The notes beneath the pieces were generated by a model. It had not been told where the DNA came from, made no database searches, and saw nothing but the letters and a program-made list of their open reading frames with translations. Of a DNA stretch of 5,699 nucleotides, positions 1 through 4,383 are shown piece by piece. This stretch comes from an uncultured Devosia sp. (lineage in GTDB: Bacteria > Pseudomonadota > Alphaproteobacteria > Rhizobiales > Devosiaceae): the NCBI GenBank assembly GCA_946480655.1, contig CAMLKN010000156.1, positions 1-5,699 on the forward strand, read 5' to 3'. The number at the start of each line of letters is the position of its first letter. Positions within the stretch are counted from its first letter, which is position 1. A program made the position numbers and the translations under genes.

Positions 1-604
1 CGAGGCGGAGCGTGACGCCTATCACGCCGAAAAAATGAAGAAGAAGAAGGCGGCGCGCGACAAGATCCTCTCGACCAAGACCGAGGAAAAGGGCCTGCTC
101 ATCGTCCATACCGGCAAGGGCAAGGGCAAGTCGACGGCCGCCTTCGGCATGGTGTTCCGGGCTTTGGGTAACGGTATGCGCGTCGGCGTGGTGCAGTTCG
201 TCAAGGGCGTCTGGAACACCGGTGAGCGCACCGTGCTCGACAGGTTCCCCGACCAGGTCACCATCAATGCCATGGGCGAAGGCTTCACTTGGGACGTTGC
301 CGACCGGCAGCGCGATCTCGCTGCCGCCCGCAAGGCCTGGGACCAGGCCCGGGCGCTGATCGCCGACCCGACCTACGACATGGTCCTGCTCGACGAGCTC
401 AACATCTGCCTGCGCTACGACTATCTGCCCATTGAGGAAGTGGTCGAAGTACTCGCCAGCAAGCCGCACGACAAGCATGTCATTGTCACCGGCCGCAATG
501 CCAAGGACGAACTCATTGAGATCGCCGATCTCGTCACCGAAATGACCGAGATCAAGCATCACTTCCGCGCCGGGGTGAAGGCGCAGAAGGGTATCGAGTT
601 CTAA
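1..604 (+). CDS. cobO: Cob(I)yrinic acid a,c-diamide adenosyltransferase, 5' end outside window
   Basis: CobO transfers the 5'-deoxyadenosyl group of ATP to the reduced cobalt of cob(I)yrinic acid a,c-diamide in the cytoplasm, after cobalt insertion. The P-loop GKGKGKST lies at nt 113-136. It is followed by a Walker-B-like LLDELN stretch and the family's conserved C-terminus (VTGRNAKDELIEIADL, then AGVKAQKGIEF). An ATG at 35 would give 189 aa. However, the frame stays open to the window edge, and the upstream codons read EAERDAYHAEK, which matches the usual CobO N-terminus just before the Lys-rich stretch. The real start therefore lies upstream, and the gene is given as 5'-partial (first complete codon at nt 2). 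The stop is TAA at 602-604. The gene faces convergently toward the small secreted-protein gene. In related genomes cobN often lies upstream of cobO, but that cannot be seen here. The family assignment is very secure. Confidence 0.96.
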   Translation, partial: EAERDAYHAEKMKKKKAARDKILSTKTEEKGLLIVHTGKGKGKSTAAFGMVFRALGNGMRVGVVQFVKGVWNTGERTVLDRFPDQVTINAMGEGFTWDVADRQRDLAAARKAWDQARALIADPTYDMVLLDELNICLRYDYLPIEEVVEVLASKPHDKHVIVTGRNAKDELIEIADLVTEMTEIKHHFRAGVKAQKGIEF

Positions 605-661: not shown

Positions 662-1132
662 TCAGCACCCCACGGCAACGAACGACCTGTTCAGCCCCTC
701 AATGACAGCGTCCATCGTGGCGAGGTCGCGGATATTGTATTCCACTCGATAGGCCGCATAGCCAGACCCATCGCAGAGTACGATCATCCGCTGGTAGACG
801 ATGCGATGGTCGCGCTGTCCCGAAAACACCGCCCATTGCGGTGTAGAGGTCTGGTAGCTGACGCCCCAGTTCTCGGCACTGGCCGACGCAATCCTGTCTG
901 CCGCTTCCTCCTCGAATGTGTCGAGCAGATGCCCGCCCCACACGGTCAGCACCTGCTCTGCCCCGAGCCGCAGGAACGCCTGACCGTCGCCATTGTCGCT
1001 CTCCCCCTGCCCAACGAAATCGGGCGGGACGTCGATTGCATAGCCGAACCGGGCATTCTCATAGTGCCCCCAGAACTGCGCCAGGGCAGGGGAAGCAATC
1101 AGCATCAGGGCGAGGACGAGGAGGGCGCGCAT
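662..1132 (-). CDS. Small secreted (periplasmic) protein of unknown function
   Basis: This encodes 156 aa from the ATG at 1132. A Sec-type signal peptide is evident: MR, a hydrophobic core rich in Leu, Ala and Met, then SPALA followed by Q, with cleavage predicted after residue 18. The mature part begins FWGHYENARFGYAIDVP, a compact opening common in periplasmic alpha/beta proteins of the PsbP/Mog1-like type; that fold is a guess from pattern only. The mature protein has two cysteines, C120 and the C-terminal residue C156, which could form a disulfide. The frame is open up to 1297, but the longer product would overlap the CDF gene and put about 55 Arg/Ser-rich residues before the signal peptide, so the 1132 start is preferred. 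The ribosome binding site is weak. The gene lies 40 nt after the CDF gene on the same strand and is probably its operon partner. I cannot assign a function. Confidence 0.75.
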   Translation of the reverse strand: MRALLVLALMLIASPALAQFWGHYENARFGYAIDVPPDFVGQGESDNGDGQAFLRLGAEQVLTVWGGHLLDTFEEEAADRIASASAENWGVSYQTSTPQWAVFSGQRDHRIVYQRMIVLCDGSGYAAYRVEYNIRDLATMDAVIEGLNRSFVAVGC

Positions 1133-1172: not shown

Positions 1173-2066
1173 TCACAAGACGACAATGCCGGCATGCTTG
1201 GCCTTGTTCTCGGGCTCGACATGGATGGTGATCTGCACATCCTTGACCGCCTCGCGCAGCTTGGCTTCAATCTCGTCGCAAATCGTATGCGCAGCATCCA
1301 CCGTCATCGCCCCGGGCACCACGAGGTGAAAGTCGATAAAGGTCATCTTGCCCGCCTGGCGTGTGCGGATGTCATGGGCTTCCAGCGCGCCATCGGCATT
1401 GATGGAAATCACCTCGCGGATGGTCTTCTGCGTTTCGGCCGGCACGGCGACGTCCATCAATCCGCCGACGCTGTCGCGGATGACGCCCCAGCCCGACCAC
1501 AGAATATTGATGGCGACCAGGGCAGCCAGCACGGCGTCGAGCTGGGCAATGCCGGTCGTATAGACCAGCACAAGCCCCACCAGCACGCCGCCCGTCGACA
1601 TCACGTCGGTCATCAGGTGCTTGCCATCGGCCGCGATCGCTGGCGATTTGGCCTGCCGGCCCTGGCGAAGCAAAACCATGGCCCAGACGAGGTTGATCGC
1701 CGTCGCGACGCCGCTGACGGCCAGCCCTTCAACCGGCGCTTCAGGCAGCTCCGGCGTCAGAAAGCCGAAAAAGGCCTCACGCAGAATGAGGATGGCAGCC
1801 ACGATGATCATCACCCCGACCAGCACGGCCGAAAAATACTCGGCCTTGTGGTAGCCATAGGGCAGGGTGTCGTCCGCCGGCCGCAGCGATAGCCTCACCG
1901 CAATCAGCGCGCCGATTGCCGTCACCACATTGACGATCGACTCCAGTGCATCCGAATAGAGCGCAATCGAGCCGGTCAGCCACCAGGCGAGACCCTTGAG
2001 GCCGAGCACGATCACCCCGATCAGGATACTCGTCATGGCTATGGCGAGGGTCTTGTTGGCGGCCAT
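1173..2066 (-). CDS. Cation diffusion facilitator (CDF) family metal exporter
   Basis: A 297-aa inner-membrane protein of usual CDF length, expected to export a divalent metal ion in exchange for protons. There are six hydrophobic segments at about residues 8-30, 33-58, 77-98, 112-133, 150-171 and 175-196, then a cytoplasmic ferredoxin-like domain. The TM5 metal motif HxxxD is present (H150, D154). In TM2, the positions that are Asp/Asp in E. coli FieF appear as E42 and N46 within SDALESIVN, a variant transport site. The C-terminal domain has H231, H247, H282 and E284, aligning with the regulatory zinc-binding residues H232, H248, H283 and D285 of FieF. The start is firm: GGAGG at 2072-2076 (minus strand) is 5 nt before the ATG. 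The metal cannot be named from sequence; Fe, Zn, Mn or Co are possible. Its place among B12 genes makes cobalt an attractive but unproven candidate. The TGA stop is at 1173-1175. Confidence 0.92.
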   Translation of the reverse strand: MAANKTLAIAMTSILIGVIVLGLKGLAWWLTGSIALYSDALESIVNVVTAIGALIAVRLSLRPADDTLPYGYHKAEYFSAVLVGVMIIVAAILILREAFFGFLTPELPEAPVEGLAVSGVATAINLVWAMVLLRQGRQAKSPAIAADGKHLMTDVMSTGGVLVGLVLVYTTGIAQLDAVLAALVAINILWSGWGVIRDSVGGLMDVAVPAETQKTIREVISINADGALEAHDIRTRQAGKMTFIDFHLVVPGAMTVDAAHTICDEIEAKLREAVKDVQITIHVEPENKAKHAGIVVL

Positions 2067-2201: not shown

Positions 2202-2230
2202 TTGACCACGGCCTTTGCCCCGCCTAGAAC
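2202..2230 (+). promoter_or_regulatory. Sigma70-type promoter for the cobE leader
   Basis: TTGACC (-35, 2202-2207) and TAGAAC (-10, 2225-2230) are separated by exactly 17 nt. This is a good match for a housekeeping promoter in an alphaproteobacterium, where -10 boxes are often degenerate. Transcription would begin near 2236-2238, about 118 nt before the cobE start codon. No comparable promoter is obvious elsewhere in the region. The assignment rests on motif and spacing only. Confidence 0.55.
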
Positions 2231-2236
2231 CTGAAG

Positions 2237-2324
2237 CAGCGCAGCGTTCCCCTGATGGAACTGAAGAGAGCTCGGTGCGGCTGACCAATTTGCGGGGCCA
2301 AATCCGGGGCTGCTCCGGTTTTTT
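2237..2324 (+). ncRNA. Candidate structured leader RNA or terminated small RNA upstream of cobE
   Basis: From the predicted start near 2237 to the end of the T-run is about 88 nt of RNA with ordered hairpins. Hairpin 1 is GTTCC (2246-2250) with GGAAC (2257-2261), loop CCTGAT. Hairpin 2 is ATTTG (2288-2292) with CAAAT (2299-2303), loop CGGGGC. An intrinsic terminator follows directly. CCCC at 2249-2252 could alternatively pair with the GGGG in loop 2 or with the GGGG of the terminator stem, so a switch between folds is conceivable. The RNA could be an attenuator controlling cobE or an independent small RNA. I see no B12 box (GCCACTG) or other cobalamin riboswitch core, and no resemblance to SRP RNA, tmRNA or 6S RNA. 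The 5' end is uncertain by a few bases. Confidence 0.4.
2304..2324 (+). terminator. Intrinsic (rho-independent) terminator before cobE
   Basis: CCGGGG (2304-2309) pairs with CTCCGG (2313-2318), six pairs including one G-U, across a CTG loop. Six consecutive T residues follow at 2319-2324. No coding gene on this strand ends upstream within the window after cobO, and the nearest + strand promoter candidate is at 2202-2230. The terminator thus sits inside the 5' leader of cobE, 31 nt before the start codon, where it would act as an attenuator or end a short RNA. Confidence 0.6.
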
Positions 2325-2334
2325 GAGCGAACCT

Positions 2335-2351
2335 GCCTCGTTTGACGAGGC
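2335..2351 (+). promoter_or_regulatory. Hairpin sequestering the cobE Shine-Dalgarno sequence
   Basis: GCCTCG (2335-2340) and CGAGGC (2346-2351) form a perfect 6-bp stem with loop TTTGA, extendable by a T-G pair. The 3' arm contains GAGG (2347-2350), the only plausible ribosome binding site for cobE, 5 nt before the ATG at 2356. In this fold the site would be hidden from ribosomes. Pairing is read directly from sequence; a regulatory role is inferred. Confidence 0.45.
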
Positions 2352-2355
2352 GATG

Positions 2356-2838
2356 ATGAGTGATGATTCAAGGCGCGGTTCGGCGCCCCTGCCAGTTTGG
2401 ACACGACCGGGCCTCGTGGCCGGCATTGGCCTGCGGGAGTCTGCGGCTTCCGATGATATCCTCGAACTTCTCGACATCTGCCTCGCGTCCGTCCACGCCA
2501 AGCGCTCGGACCTTGTCGGCCTGGTAACGGTCGATGCGCGGTCGAACCATGCGCAATTGTTGCAGGTCACGCGCATGCTCGACCTGCCGCTGGCCACCCT
2601 GTCCCTGGCGCAGCTCGATCAGCCGGTGCCCAATCCGTCCCAGCGTGTGCGCGACCACGTTGGCGTCGCGTCGGTCGCCGAGGCAGCGGCGCGCGCATTC
2701 GGACCCCTGGTCGTGGCCAAGCGGCGTTCGAGTAATGTCACCTGTGCCCTGTCGCGCTATGCCTTGGCCGAAACATCCTCGAGCTCCAGGGCCCCCAGCG
2801 CCTCTTCGACACTGGCCACTTCCAGCGCTGGGCCATAG
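2356..2838 (+). CDS. cobE: Cobalamin biosynthesis protein CobE (CbiG C-terminal-like)
   Basis: A 160-aa product of the CobE/CbiG C-terminal family. CobE is an accessory protein of aerobic corrin-ring synthesis whose exact role is not settled, as far as I know. Family landmarks are GIGLRESA (from residue 23), the Asp-Ala segment VTVDARSNHAQLL, the VGVASVAEAAA stretch, LVVAKR, and the signature NVTCA at residues 127-131. The ATG at 2356 is chosen because GAGG at 2347-2350 is 5 nt upstream; the adjacent in-frame ATG at 2353 leaves only 2 nt. An in-frame ATG at 2215 would overlap the promoter and terminator and add about 47 unrelated residues. After NVTCALSR there is a Ser/Ala-rich tail of about 27 residues. 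Nearly all of it is encoded opposite the 3' end of cobK, and it is probably non-conserved. Confidence 0.88.
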   Translation: MSDDSRRGSAPLPVWTRPGLVAGIGLRESAASDDILELLDICLASVHAKRSDLVGLVTVDARSNHAQLLQVTRMLDLPLATLSLAQLDQPVPNPSQRVRDHVGVASVAEAAARAFGPLVVAKRRSSNVTCALSRYALAETSSSSRAPSASSTLATSSAGP

Positions 2839-3500
2839 GTGGGCCGGGCTATCATGATGACTTCGACCCCCATTTGCCGCGCTGCTTCCAGCTTGGCCTC
2901 CGTCTGTGCCCCGCCGGAATTCTTGCTGACCAGATGGGTGATGCCATGACGCCGCATCAGCGCCTTTTCGCTGTCCAGGTCGTAGGGCGGCCGGCTGACG
3001 ATCAGCTCCGCGTGGCGCGGCAGCTCCAGGTCCGGCGCCTCGATCACCCGCACATGGATCCGGCAATCGCTTCGCTCGAGAAAGGTCTCGAGTCCCGTAT
3101 GCCCCGTCGTCAGCAGTACATTGGCTCCGGCCGGCAGGGCGTCCGCCGCCTCCTGTACCGAACTGACATGGGTCCAGCTCTGGCCCGGGCTCGGCGCCCA
3201 TTCCGGACGCATGTAGCGCACCAGCTTGACGCCGGTGACCTTGGCGGCGGCCACGGCATTGATGGAGATCAGGCCCGCATAGGGATGGGTTGCATCGACC
3301 AGGCGGTCCATCTTCGCCGCTCTCAGATAAGCGCAGAGCCCCGGAATGCCGCCGAATGGCCCCATGCGAATGCCCCCCTCGGGCAGAATGGGGTCTTGCG
3401 TCCGTCCGGCCAGCGACGTGATGACGTCGTGGCCAAGCGCCACCAGCCGGTTCGCCAGTTGCCGCGCCTCGGCCGTTCCCCCAAGGATCAGGATTTTCAT
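2757..3500 (-). CDS. cobK: Precorrin-6A reductase
   Basis: A 247-aa cytoplasmic enzyme of the CobK/CbiJ family, which reduces precorrin-6A to precorrin-6B with NADPH. The N-terminus MKILILGGTAEAR is the typical nucleotide-binding start. The highly conserved VDATHPYA is at residues 68-75. TTGHTGLETF, SRPPYD and LVSKNSGG followed by KLEAAR appear further on in the expected order. The frame is open to 3572, but the ATG at 3500 places the family's conserved N-terminus at residue 1. GGACGG just upstream is only a weak ribosome binding site. The gene is on the opposite strand to its cob neighbours. It is divergent from cobA across 70 bp and convergent with cobE, overlapping its 3' end by 82 bp. The 3' end of this gene, after VASVEEALGALELE, lies in that overlap. 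In many relatives cobK lies within a co-directional ring-synthesis operon, so an inversion is likely here. Confidence 0.95.
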   Translation of the reverse strand: MKILILGGTAEARQLANRLVALGHDVITSLAGRTQDPILPEGGIRMGPFGGIPGLCAYLRAAKMDRLVDATHPYAGLISINAVAAAKVTGVKLVRYMRPEWAPSPGQSWTHVSSVQEAADALPAGANVLLTTGHTGLETFLERSDCRIHVRVIEAPDLELPRHAELIVSRPPYDLDSEKALMRRHGITHLVSKNSGGAQTEAKLEAARQMGVEVIMIARPTYGPALEVASVEEALGALELEDVSAKA

Positions 3501-3570
3501 AGTTTGCCGTCCATCGATTTGCCCCACTCTGCCCGGCCCTGTCGTCCCGCTCAAGGGGTGGCTCGCATCC

Positions 3571-4383
3571 ATGGTTGATCCGCATATCGCCCAGCTCGCT
3601 CACGCCGATTTTCCACCATTCACGGCCGGCTCCGTCTGGCTGGTGGGCGCCGGCCCGGGCGGCCCGGGCCTCCTCACGCTGCTTGCCTTCAAGGCGCTGG
3701 GCGAGGCCGACGTCATCGTCCATGACGCGCTGGTCTCGCCCGATATCCTGGCCCTCGCACCCGTGCATATCGAGCGCATTCATGCCGGCAAGCGCGGCGG
3801 CAAGCCGTCGCCCAAGCAGGCCGATATCACCATCCGCCTCATTGAACTGGCGCGGCAGAGCAAGCGCGTTCTGCGCCTCAAGGGCGGCGATCCCTTCATG
3901 TTCGGCCGGGGTGGCGAGGAAGCCGGCGAACTGGCCCGCGCCGGCATCCCTTTCCGCATCGTGCCGGGCATTTCCTCGGGCCTCGGGGGCCTCGCCTATG
4001 CCGGCCTACCCATCACCCACCGCGACACCAACCAGGCCGTGCTTTTCCTCACCGGCCATGACGAGACCGGCACCGTGCCGGGCGCCATCGACTGGTCGGC
4101 CGTCGCGAAGGCGGCCCCTGTGATCGTCATGTTCATGGCGGTCAAACACCTGCCCTCCATCGCGGCGCAGCTATTGGCCGCTGGTCGCTCACCGGACGAA
4201 GCATTGACCCTTGTTTCGCATGCAGCCAGTCCGTCCCAGACGGTGCTGGAGACCACGCTGGGCAAGGCCACCATCCCGCTCGATGTGCCTACGCCGGCCA
4301 TCGTCGTTCTCGGTCCCGTCGCCCGCTATCGCGCCGAGCTCGATTGGTATGTCGCCGAGGCAAGGAGGCATGTCTTTGGCTAG
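3571..4383 (+). CDS. cobA: Uroporphyrinogen-III C-methyltransferase (SUMT)
   Basis: A 270-aa, S-adenosylmethionine-dependent enzyme that methylates uroporphyrinogen III at C-2 and C-7 to give precorrin-2, committing tetrapyrrole to B12 (and potentially siroheme). The glycine-rich loop GAGPGGPG is at residues 26-33, HDALVS near 51-56, KRGGKPSPKQADI near 74-86 and LKGGDPFMFGRGGEE at 103-117. VPGISSGLGGLAYAGLPITHR follows. The length is that of a stand-alone SUMT, with no CysG-type siroheme domains. The ATG at 3571 is the only sensible start near the conserved N-terminus, although AAGGGG (3553-3558) is rather far upstream (12 nt). Its 3' end overlaps cobB by 14 nt, so translation is probably coupled. 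No AT-rich -10 element is visible in the 70 bp shared with cobK. Confidence 0.96.
   Translation: MVDPHIAQLAHADFPPFTAGSVWLVGAGPGGPGLLTLLAFKALGEADVIVHDALVSPDILALAPVHIERIHAGKRGGKPSPKQADITIRLIELARQSKRVLRLKGGDPFMFGRGGEEAGELARAGIPFRIVPGISSGLGGLAYAGLPITHRDTNQAVLFLTGHDETGTVPGAIDWSAVAKAAPVIVMFMAVKHLPSIAAQLLAAGRSPDEALTLVSHAASPSQTVLETTLGKATIPLDVPTPAIVVLGPVARYRAELDWYVAEARRHVFG
4362..4368 (+). promoter_or_regulatory. Ribosome binding site of cobB, unusually close to its ATG
   Basis: AAGGAGG is a near-perfect Shine-Dalgarno sequence inside the end of cobA. Only one base separates it from the ATG at 4370, too close for efficient initiation. The in-frame TTG at 4376 is 7 nt away, an ideal distance. The site therefore raises doubt about which codon starts cobB. 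Confidence 0.6.

Follow-up and report, generated by a model that had tools for sequence, protein, structure and literature searches.

A conserved leader RNA ahead of corrin-ring genes in Hyphomicrobiales is a probable relative of the cobalamin riboswitch

The cobE leader of a Devosia B12 locus

In cobalamin riboswitches a four-way junction is named as conserved (PMC11260477), and the P4 loop of the AdoCbl riboswitch is described as a T-loop that can be interrupted by a helix (PMC2258182). The AdoCbl riboswitch (RF01482) and the AdoCbl-variant (RF01689), both named in PMC8123684, are further leader RNAs tied to B12. In alpha-proteobacteria, speF, serC, ybhL and metA-type motifs have been listed (PMC2573895), which are leader RNAs in the same bacterial class as the one analysed here and belong to other genes.

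The window is a stretch of 5,699 nucleotides from an uncultured Devosia sp. (contig CAMLKN010000156.1), and its best CobA matches are to Devosia, with identity of up to 87%. Its open reading frames and Pfam matches identify a B12 locus, including cobO (35-604), cobE, cobK, a cobA-type methylase and cobB. A gene without a Pfam match is located at 662-1132 (minus strand), and an MntE-like cation efflux gene of the CDF family at 1173-2066 (minus strand; NCBIfam MntE score below the cut-off). The cobE gene (2356-2838, plus strand) belongs to the CbiG C-terminal family (PF01890), has homologues of 160 aa and starts with the ATG at 2356, 2353 being a possible alternative. It is convergent with cobK (2757-3572, minus strand), and the coding ends of the two genes share about 80 nt (2757-2838). 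The leader RNA is positioned between the divergent efflux gene and cobE.

The original prediction had placed a promoter, two hairpins, an intrinsic terminator and a stem covering the ribosome binding site in this leader, and had read them as a possible RNA switch with a transcriptional and a translational gate. The observation was confirmed in part, and its interpretation is partly supported. The promoter (2202-2230, plus strand) is present, with TTGACC (2202-2207) and TAGAAC (2225-2230) separated by 17 nt. Of 32 Devosia-type leaders (the window and 31 relatives), 30 have the pattern TTGACC-16..18-TA[N]A[AG], which precedes the RNA core by 6-9 nt in these leaders and by 8 nt in the window. The conserved core of 77 nt (2239-2315, plus strand; models R1 and R2, described below) scores 87.7 bits with R1, the window itself being among the sequences used to build that model.

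Comparative structure shows that the core folds as a three-way junction. It is closed by helix P1 (2241-2244 with 2310-2313), which shows covariation and reads GCAG/CUGC, ACGG/CUGU, AUGG/CCGU or AAUG/CAUU in other lineages (rows of alignment A3). The first of the two predicted hairpins, at 2246-2261, is the conserved helix P2 (2246-2250 with 2257-2261), the counterpart of P2 of the cobalamin riboswitch, and it aligns to the canonical P2 region in some of the weaker matches. Two bases of the CCCC at 2249-2252, C2249 and C2250, are located inside it. The junction J2/3 (2262-2270) reads UGAAGAGAG in the window and UGAAA plus variable bases in other loci, whereas canonical riboswitches carry AAAAGGGAA or similar at this site. 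The P3 arm of five pairs (2271-2275 with 2304-2308) has UGCG starting at U2276 and AA ahead of its 3' strand, and P4 (2279-2282 with 2296-2299 and 2285-2286 with 2294-2295) is a helix inside the T-loop. The second predicted hairpin, at 2288-2303, can form and is part of the single-sequence minimum free energy (MFE) fold, but the comparative structure assigns its bases to P4 and the loop.

Downstream of these helices are the two elements taken as gates. The terminator-like hairpin with its T6 run (2300-2324; predicted as 2304-2318 plus T6) is present, with a dG of about -8.3 kcal/mol, and is specific to the lineage. It takes up the 3' strand of P3 and that of P1, which makes core folding and termination mutually exclusive in the lineage of the window. 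The stem over the ribosome binding site is also present, as a hairpin of 8 bp (2334-2341 with 2345-2352) with the GAGG at 2347-2350, and Shine-Dalgarno (SD) sequestration recurs among relatives. In single-sequence folding, the leader shows no extra stability over its shuffles (z = -0.06; 89 of 200 shuffles at least as stable), and it is conservation and covariation, not stability, that set it apart from chance. The conserved fold and the MFE fold of the window have nearly equal energies (-40.9 and -41.9 kcal/mol), which would permit switching.

Conservation and covariation of the leader RNA

Among 80 loci gathered by CobA, 31 carry the efflux gene (tblastn), and the same leader was present in all 31. 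In the alignment of the 32 Devosia-type sequences, 41 of 142 columns are invariant, and RNAalifold returned P1, P2, P3 and P4. Taken alone, these sequences show limited covariation: both-side changes occur at 3 of 20 pairs, a number that was reached by 36 of 500 shuffles. With a covariance model built from the 32 leaders (R1), 58 of 75 genus-level genomes showed a single strong copy (77-102 bits), and 151 of 397 order-level genomes had a match at E <= 1e-4. Eighty further loci were taken from the best order-level places, and R1 was run on 100 loci. The resulting alignment (A4) has 100 rows, of which 98 are distinct; L206 and the canonical riboswitches L212 and L218 were removed, the window, L001 and L005 were added, and L117 is absent.

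The original prediction had proposed compensatory changes in a covariance model of relatives as a check on the leader. In A4, both-side changes affect 20 of 22 pairs and 353 cells, the latter against a shuffled mean of 96, with none of 500 shuffles as high on any covariation measure. Pairing was observed in 94.0% of cells and dropped to 57-60% after a one-column slide. Since A4 was fitted to the R1 structure, these counts lean towards the R1 fold. In our judgement, this bias does not explain the result, given how large the contrast is and how the sequences of P1, P2 and P3 differ between lineages (A3 rows). Outside the helices, the UGAAA of the junction and the UGCG and AA of the arm are nearly invariant across the order. 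We regard it as virtually certain that the leader is a conserved structured RNA.

A second covariance model (R2) was built from A4. At E <= 1e-7 it matched 123 of 397 order-level genomes; the score was at least 58.7 bits in 113, and a few of the 123 may be canonical riboswitches; one genome (G260) has two matches of about 50 bits, of which one (L212) is RF00174. In the class, 12 of 385 genomes matched at E <= 1e-5, and seven are left after setting aside five genomes (G784, G607, G497, G721 and G643) with RF00174 matches only. In the phylum, 6 of 339 genomes matched at E <= 1e-6, the canonical G497 among them. The class and phylum draws contain members of the order, and the large genome searches used stricter filters that lose weak matches. 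The RNA family is confined mostly to one order, Hyphomicrobiales.

Comparison with the cobalamin riboswitch and other named RNAs

None of the 35 R2-type loci scanned (the window, then 6, 4, 17 and 7) reached an Rfam gathering threshold. The scan, another check proposed by the original prediction, left the window leader below every such threshold, which agrees with its suggestion of a possible undescribed RNA at a B12 locus. For the window and L020 leaders, matches such as sR32 were far below their own thresholds, and identity with a known Rfam RNA was rejected also at E values of up to 10. In these two leaders there was no match in that range to RF01482 or RF01689, or to the speF, serC, ybhL and metA-type motifs. 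A NiCo (cobalt/nickel) riboswitch would fit the cobalt-related gene set, and it likewise had no match at E up to 10 in the same two leaders. The largely open-access literature searched yielded no recognisable description of this RNA, and the main texts of PMC11109978 and PMC8632094 contain no mention of cobalamin, cobalt, cobH, precorrin, Rhizobi or B12. The leader RNA is thus apparently undescribed, and no Rfam 15 family picks it out in the loci scanned.

The closest likeness is to the cobalamin riboswitch (RF00174), to which matches run in both directions. Of the weaker R1 matches, eleven loci (L090-L100; 11 further weak matches came without a locus) were compared with Rfam; L090-L099 are RF00174 (E 1.8e-8 to 0.04) and L100 is not. 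RF00174 was also found at L212, L218, L219, L225 and L227-L234. For the reverse direction, a model (R3) was built from the 5' halves of canonical cobalamin riboswitches, from P2 to CUGCC, with 18 of 19 extracted segments; the most divergent, L091, was omitted by choice. At E <= 1, R3 correctly locates 97 of the 100 R2-type loci (82 at E <= 0.01) and gives a single off-target match across 247 kb. Because its canonical loci had been collected by searches with R1 or R2, this reverse test is not fully independent. In nine loci (L200, L143, L207, L208, L203, L192, L129, L154 and L216), the R3 match is limited to the arm.

The aligned parts are P2, the A-rich J2/3 junction and the five-pair T-loop arm GGUGCG..AAnnCC with an inserted hairpin ACCCA..GGG, all present as in RF00174, and both RNAs are associated with B12 genes. 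In the alignments, the P3 arm appears equivalent to P4 of the AdoCbl riboswitch, whose T-loop is interrupted by a helix. Relative to the Rfam consensus, the ACCCA..GGG helix is an insertion; it was seen in the P4/L5 T-loop of the canonical L090, L092-L099, L212, L218, L219, L225, L227, L229 and L232-L234.

The differences concern the remainder of the aptamer. The original prediction had noted that the B12 box and the canonical core are not visible, and motif and alignment checks bear this out; the kinship with the 5' half of the cobalamin riboswitch, despite the missing box, was beyond its reach. The B12 box AGYCAGKARACCUGCC was found in none of 130 R2-type leaders (core plus 260 nt, up to 2 mismatches) and in 18 of 18 canonical sequences, the two rows that carry it (L212 and L218) being canonical. 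GGGAA at the P3/J3-4 site is absent from all 100 sequences in the aligned columns and present in 18 of 18 canonical ones, and AAGGGAA, sought at any position with one mismatch allowed, occurs in 23 of 130 leaders and in all 18 canonical sequences. The P6 segment CCCCGCAACUGU was detected in one of 130 (L147; up to 2 mismatches) against 18 of 18. The J6/3 motif RCCACUG appears in 14 of 18 canonical sequences and, perhaps by chance, in 10 of 130 leaders (core plus 260 nt). The central four-way junction is absent, the covarying structure being a three-way junction closed by another P1. With regard to the L5-L13 kissing loop, an L5-type arm is present and no B12 box was found. The core of about 77 nt compares with 205-266 nt in canonical matches, and its score is below the Rfam threshold.

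Canonical sequences carry CUGCC twice, where P6 begins and within the B12 box; deletion of the intervening DNA would leave something close to the short form, which may have arisen in this way. Taken together, the alignments make it highly probable that the leader RNA is a relative of the cobalamin riboswitch. Since neither the B12 box nor the segments of canonical binding are present, cobalamin binding in the known way is unlikely. As descent is well supported and several defining features are missing, we treat the RNA as a new variant, which should not be filed as a cobalamin riboswitch.

Downstream genes and possible regulation

A CbiX motif (GHGSR type, any frame) was found downstream in 91 of 98 non-canonical loci, within 784 nt of the core. 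In the loci without it, the first gene is CobH in L120, L151 and L164 and CobE in L204 (Pfam), and CobH-like in L150 and L154 (by eye only); the sequence of L145 stops 29 nt past the core. The motif also occurs in six R2-type class loci (L220-L224 and L226), and Pfam searches of downstream proteins returned CbiX four times, CobH three times and CobE once. Most of the Devosia found have cobE downstream, and cbiX prevails in the order as a whole. At every locus with a visible gene, the RNA stands ahead of corrin-ring genes. A small histidine-rich protein with a signal peptide (about 60-90 aa) is often located between RNA and cbiX (by eye), and could function in cobalt handling; the single such protein tested with Pfam (L118, 1225-1461) is a DUF6732 protein.

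In D. rhodophyticola (L084), the RNA is followed by cbiX (Pfam), with cobH-, cobL- and cobI-like ORFs behind it and a CDF-like ORF divergent upstream, as in the window (by eye). In D. pacifica, the RNA precedes an ORF with the CbiX motif, and an extra ORF is positioned between the RNA and an efflux-like gene (by eye). A typical Devosia genome (G001) had no CbiX match at E <= 1e-20. The arrangement in D. rhodophyticola suggests, as the simplest reading, that the leader kept its place beside the efflux gene while cobE became the first gene. In the class, 108 of 385 genomes have CbiX. The cbiX upstream regions of 40 of these, all searched with R2 and regular expressions and 20 of them with Rfam, gave no R2-type match, and a filter-off R2 search of 12 gave weak matches only (best 12.9 bits, E 0.1). 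One of the 40, L247, carries a canonical cobalamin riboswitch (209-439), the single match of the R2 search; it is located directly before cbiX, the place of the short RNA in the order. Plasmid records had no CobE match and only CbiX matches of less than 60% identity.

The core is often followed by a helix that pairs the SD sequence with an upstream pyrimidine stretch. From 128 leaders (the canonical L212 and L218, and L145 and L217, left out beforehand), 41 were dropped by eye (start codon wrong-looking or none; L206 a duplicate) and 6 have no platform. The best SD/anti-SD helix score in the remaining 81 was 15.39, compared with 13.71 for swapped platforms (sd 0.26, maximum 14.34 in 300 swaps) and 12.54 for shuffled ones; these 81 leaders were picked by eye and, including many close relatives, are not independent. 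Sequestration of the ribosome site thus appears to characterise the family. Re-pairing of the P1 5' strand as a connection from core to platform found no support, the pairing of this strand with the distal platform scoring 12.64 both as observed and when swapped between loci.

We therefore weighed what the RNA may do. It is very probably a cis-regulator of the corrin genes. The explanation that we favour overall, and hold to be probable, is a cis-regulatory descendant of the cobalamin riboswitch that heads corrin-ring genes and most likely acts on translation. Such an RNA would have retained P2 and the A-rich junction along with the P4/L5 T-loop arm and the hairpin inserted in it, and lost the GGGAA/P3 site, the P6 segment, the B12 box and the rest of the 3' half, with a different P1 closing a three-way junction directly after the arm. 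The SD/anti-SD hairpin that adjoins the core in most leaders points to translation, and its use would depend on the folded state of the core; we regard control of translation by some B12-pathway signal as most likely. If the terminator of the window works, a signal that stabilises the core would raise expression; if the SD hairpin alone counts, a response of either sign could follow. The core likely senses a small molecule or ion; a corrinoid is a plausible candidate for the signal, at somewhat less than even confidence, and another B12-pathway signal an unlikely one.

A more specific reading, which we hold only tentatively, is that of a separate riboswitch class, derived from the cobalamin riboswitch by loss of the 3' half, that would read another B12-pathway signal (a corrin intermediate or cobalt) and govern corrin-ring synthesis in Hyphomicrobiales beside canonical cobalamin riboswitches of the same genomes. 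Stated as a change of ligand, with the old scaffold sensing a corrin-ring intermediate or cobalt and the canonical copies sensing cobalamin, the idea seems doubtful to us. It draws on the loss of the canonical segments beside a conserved remainder, on 8 of 10 genomes in the weak-match set that carry both kinds (the L082-L089 set; L090-L099), on ring synthesis downstream and on the histidine-rich protein before cbiX. A ligand change within one class has been reported for guanine riboswitch variants (PMC9295807). There is no direct sign of any ligand, however, and the shortened aptamer might yet bind a corrinoid by a different mode.

It is less likely still that the RNA is a remnant without sensing, a structured 5' cap that serves mRNA stability, protein binding or constant translation. 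Half of the aptamer is gone, and the platform varies by lineage: it is missing in six Devosia leaders (L004, L005, L006, L023, L026 and L047), where the terminator is missing as well and the start codon follows the core end by 10 nt. Yet a plain stability hairpin would not need UGAAA, UGCG and AA to be near-invariant across the order, and the SD complementarity exceeds that of swapped controls. The scheme of the original prediction, a terminator and a translation gate under an RNA unrelated to known classes, we consider improbable. The window does have both the T6 hairpin and the SD hairpin, the former excluding the conserved P3, but CGG with at least four T occurs in only 13 of the 32 Devosia-type leaders, a distribution that does not support termination as a general mechanism; the 19 leaders without it do not fit two gates as a general design, and the RNA is kin to a known class. 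An ordinary promoter and leader with chance hairpins, a reading that the average single-sequence stability would allow, is ruled out for practical purposes by covariation and order-wide conservation.

With the favoured descent from the cobalamin riboswitch, one of the best-studied riboswitch superfamilies would gain an order-wide regulatory RNA that is apparently unlisted, and there would be a possible account of how corrin-ring operons are controlled where no B12 riboswitch is recognised. The family also offers a natural experiment: the binding segments are lost while part of the scaffold is still under strong selection, so that the reuse of scaffolds for new ligands becomes testable.

Three minor features of the window were recorded. 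The leader is open in the cobE frame throughout, starting at the TTG at 2215 (2215-2838); the core lengths of relatives differ by non-multiples of three, which argues against its translation. The sequence TTGTATTTGCGAACGATTTTCATAAGCAT (2128-2156), between the cobE promoter and the divergent MntE-like efflux gene and ahead of the latter, shows good conservation by eye across most of the 31 relatives, and it may be a Fur/Mur-type metal-regulator site. At 607-655, the palindromic element CTCTCCCTTTGGGGGAGAGGTCGGCGCGTAGCGCCGGGTGAGGGGG has a weak, sub-threshold match to Whalefall-1 (Rfam); palindromes of this kind occur as dispersed repeats in alphaproteobacteria.
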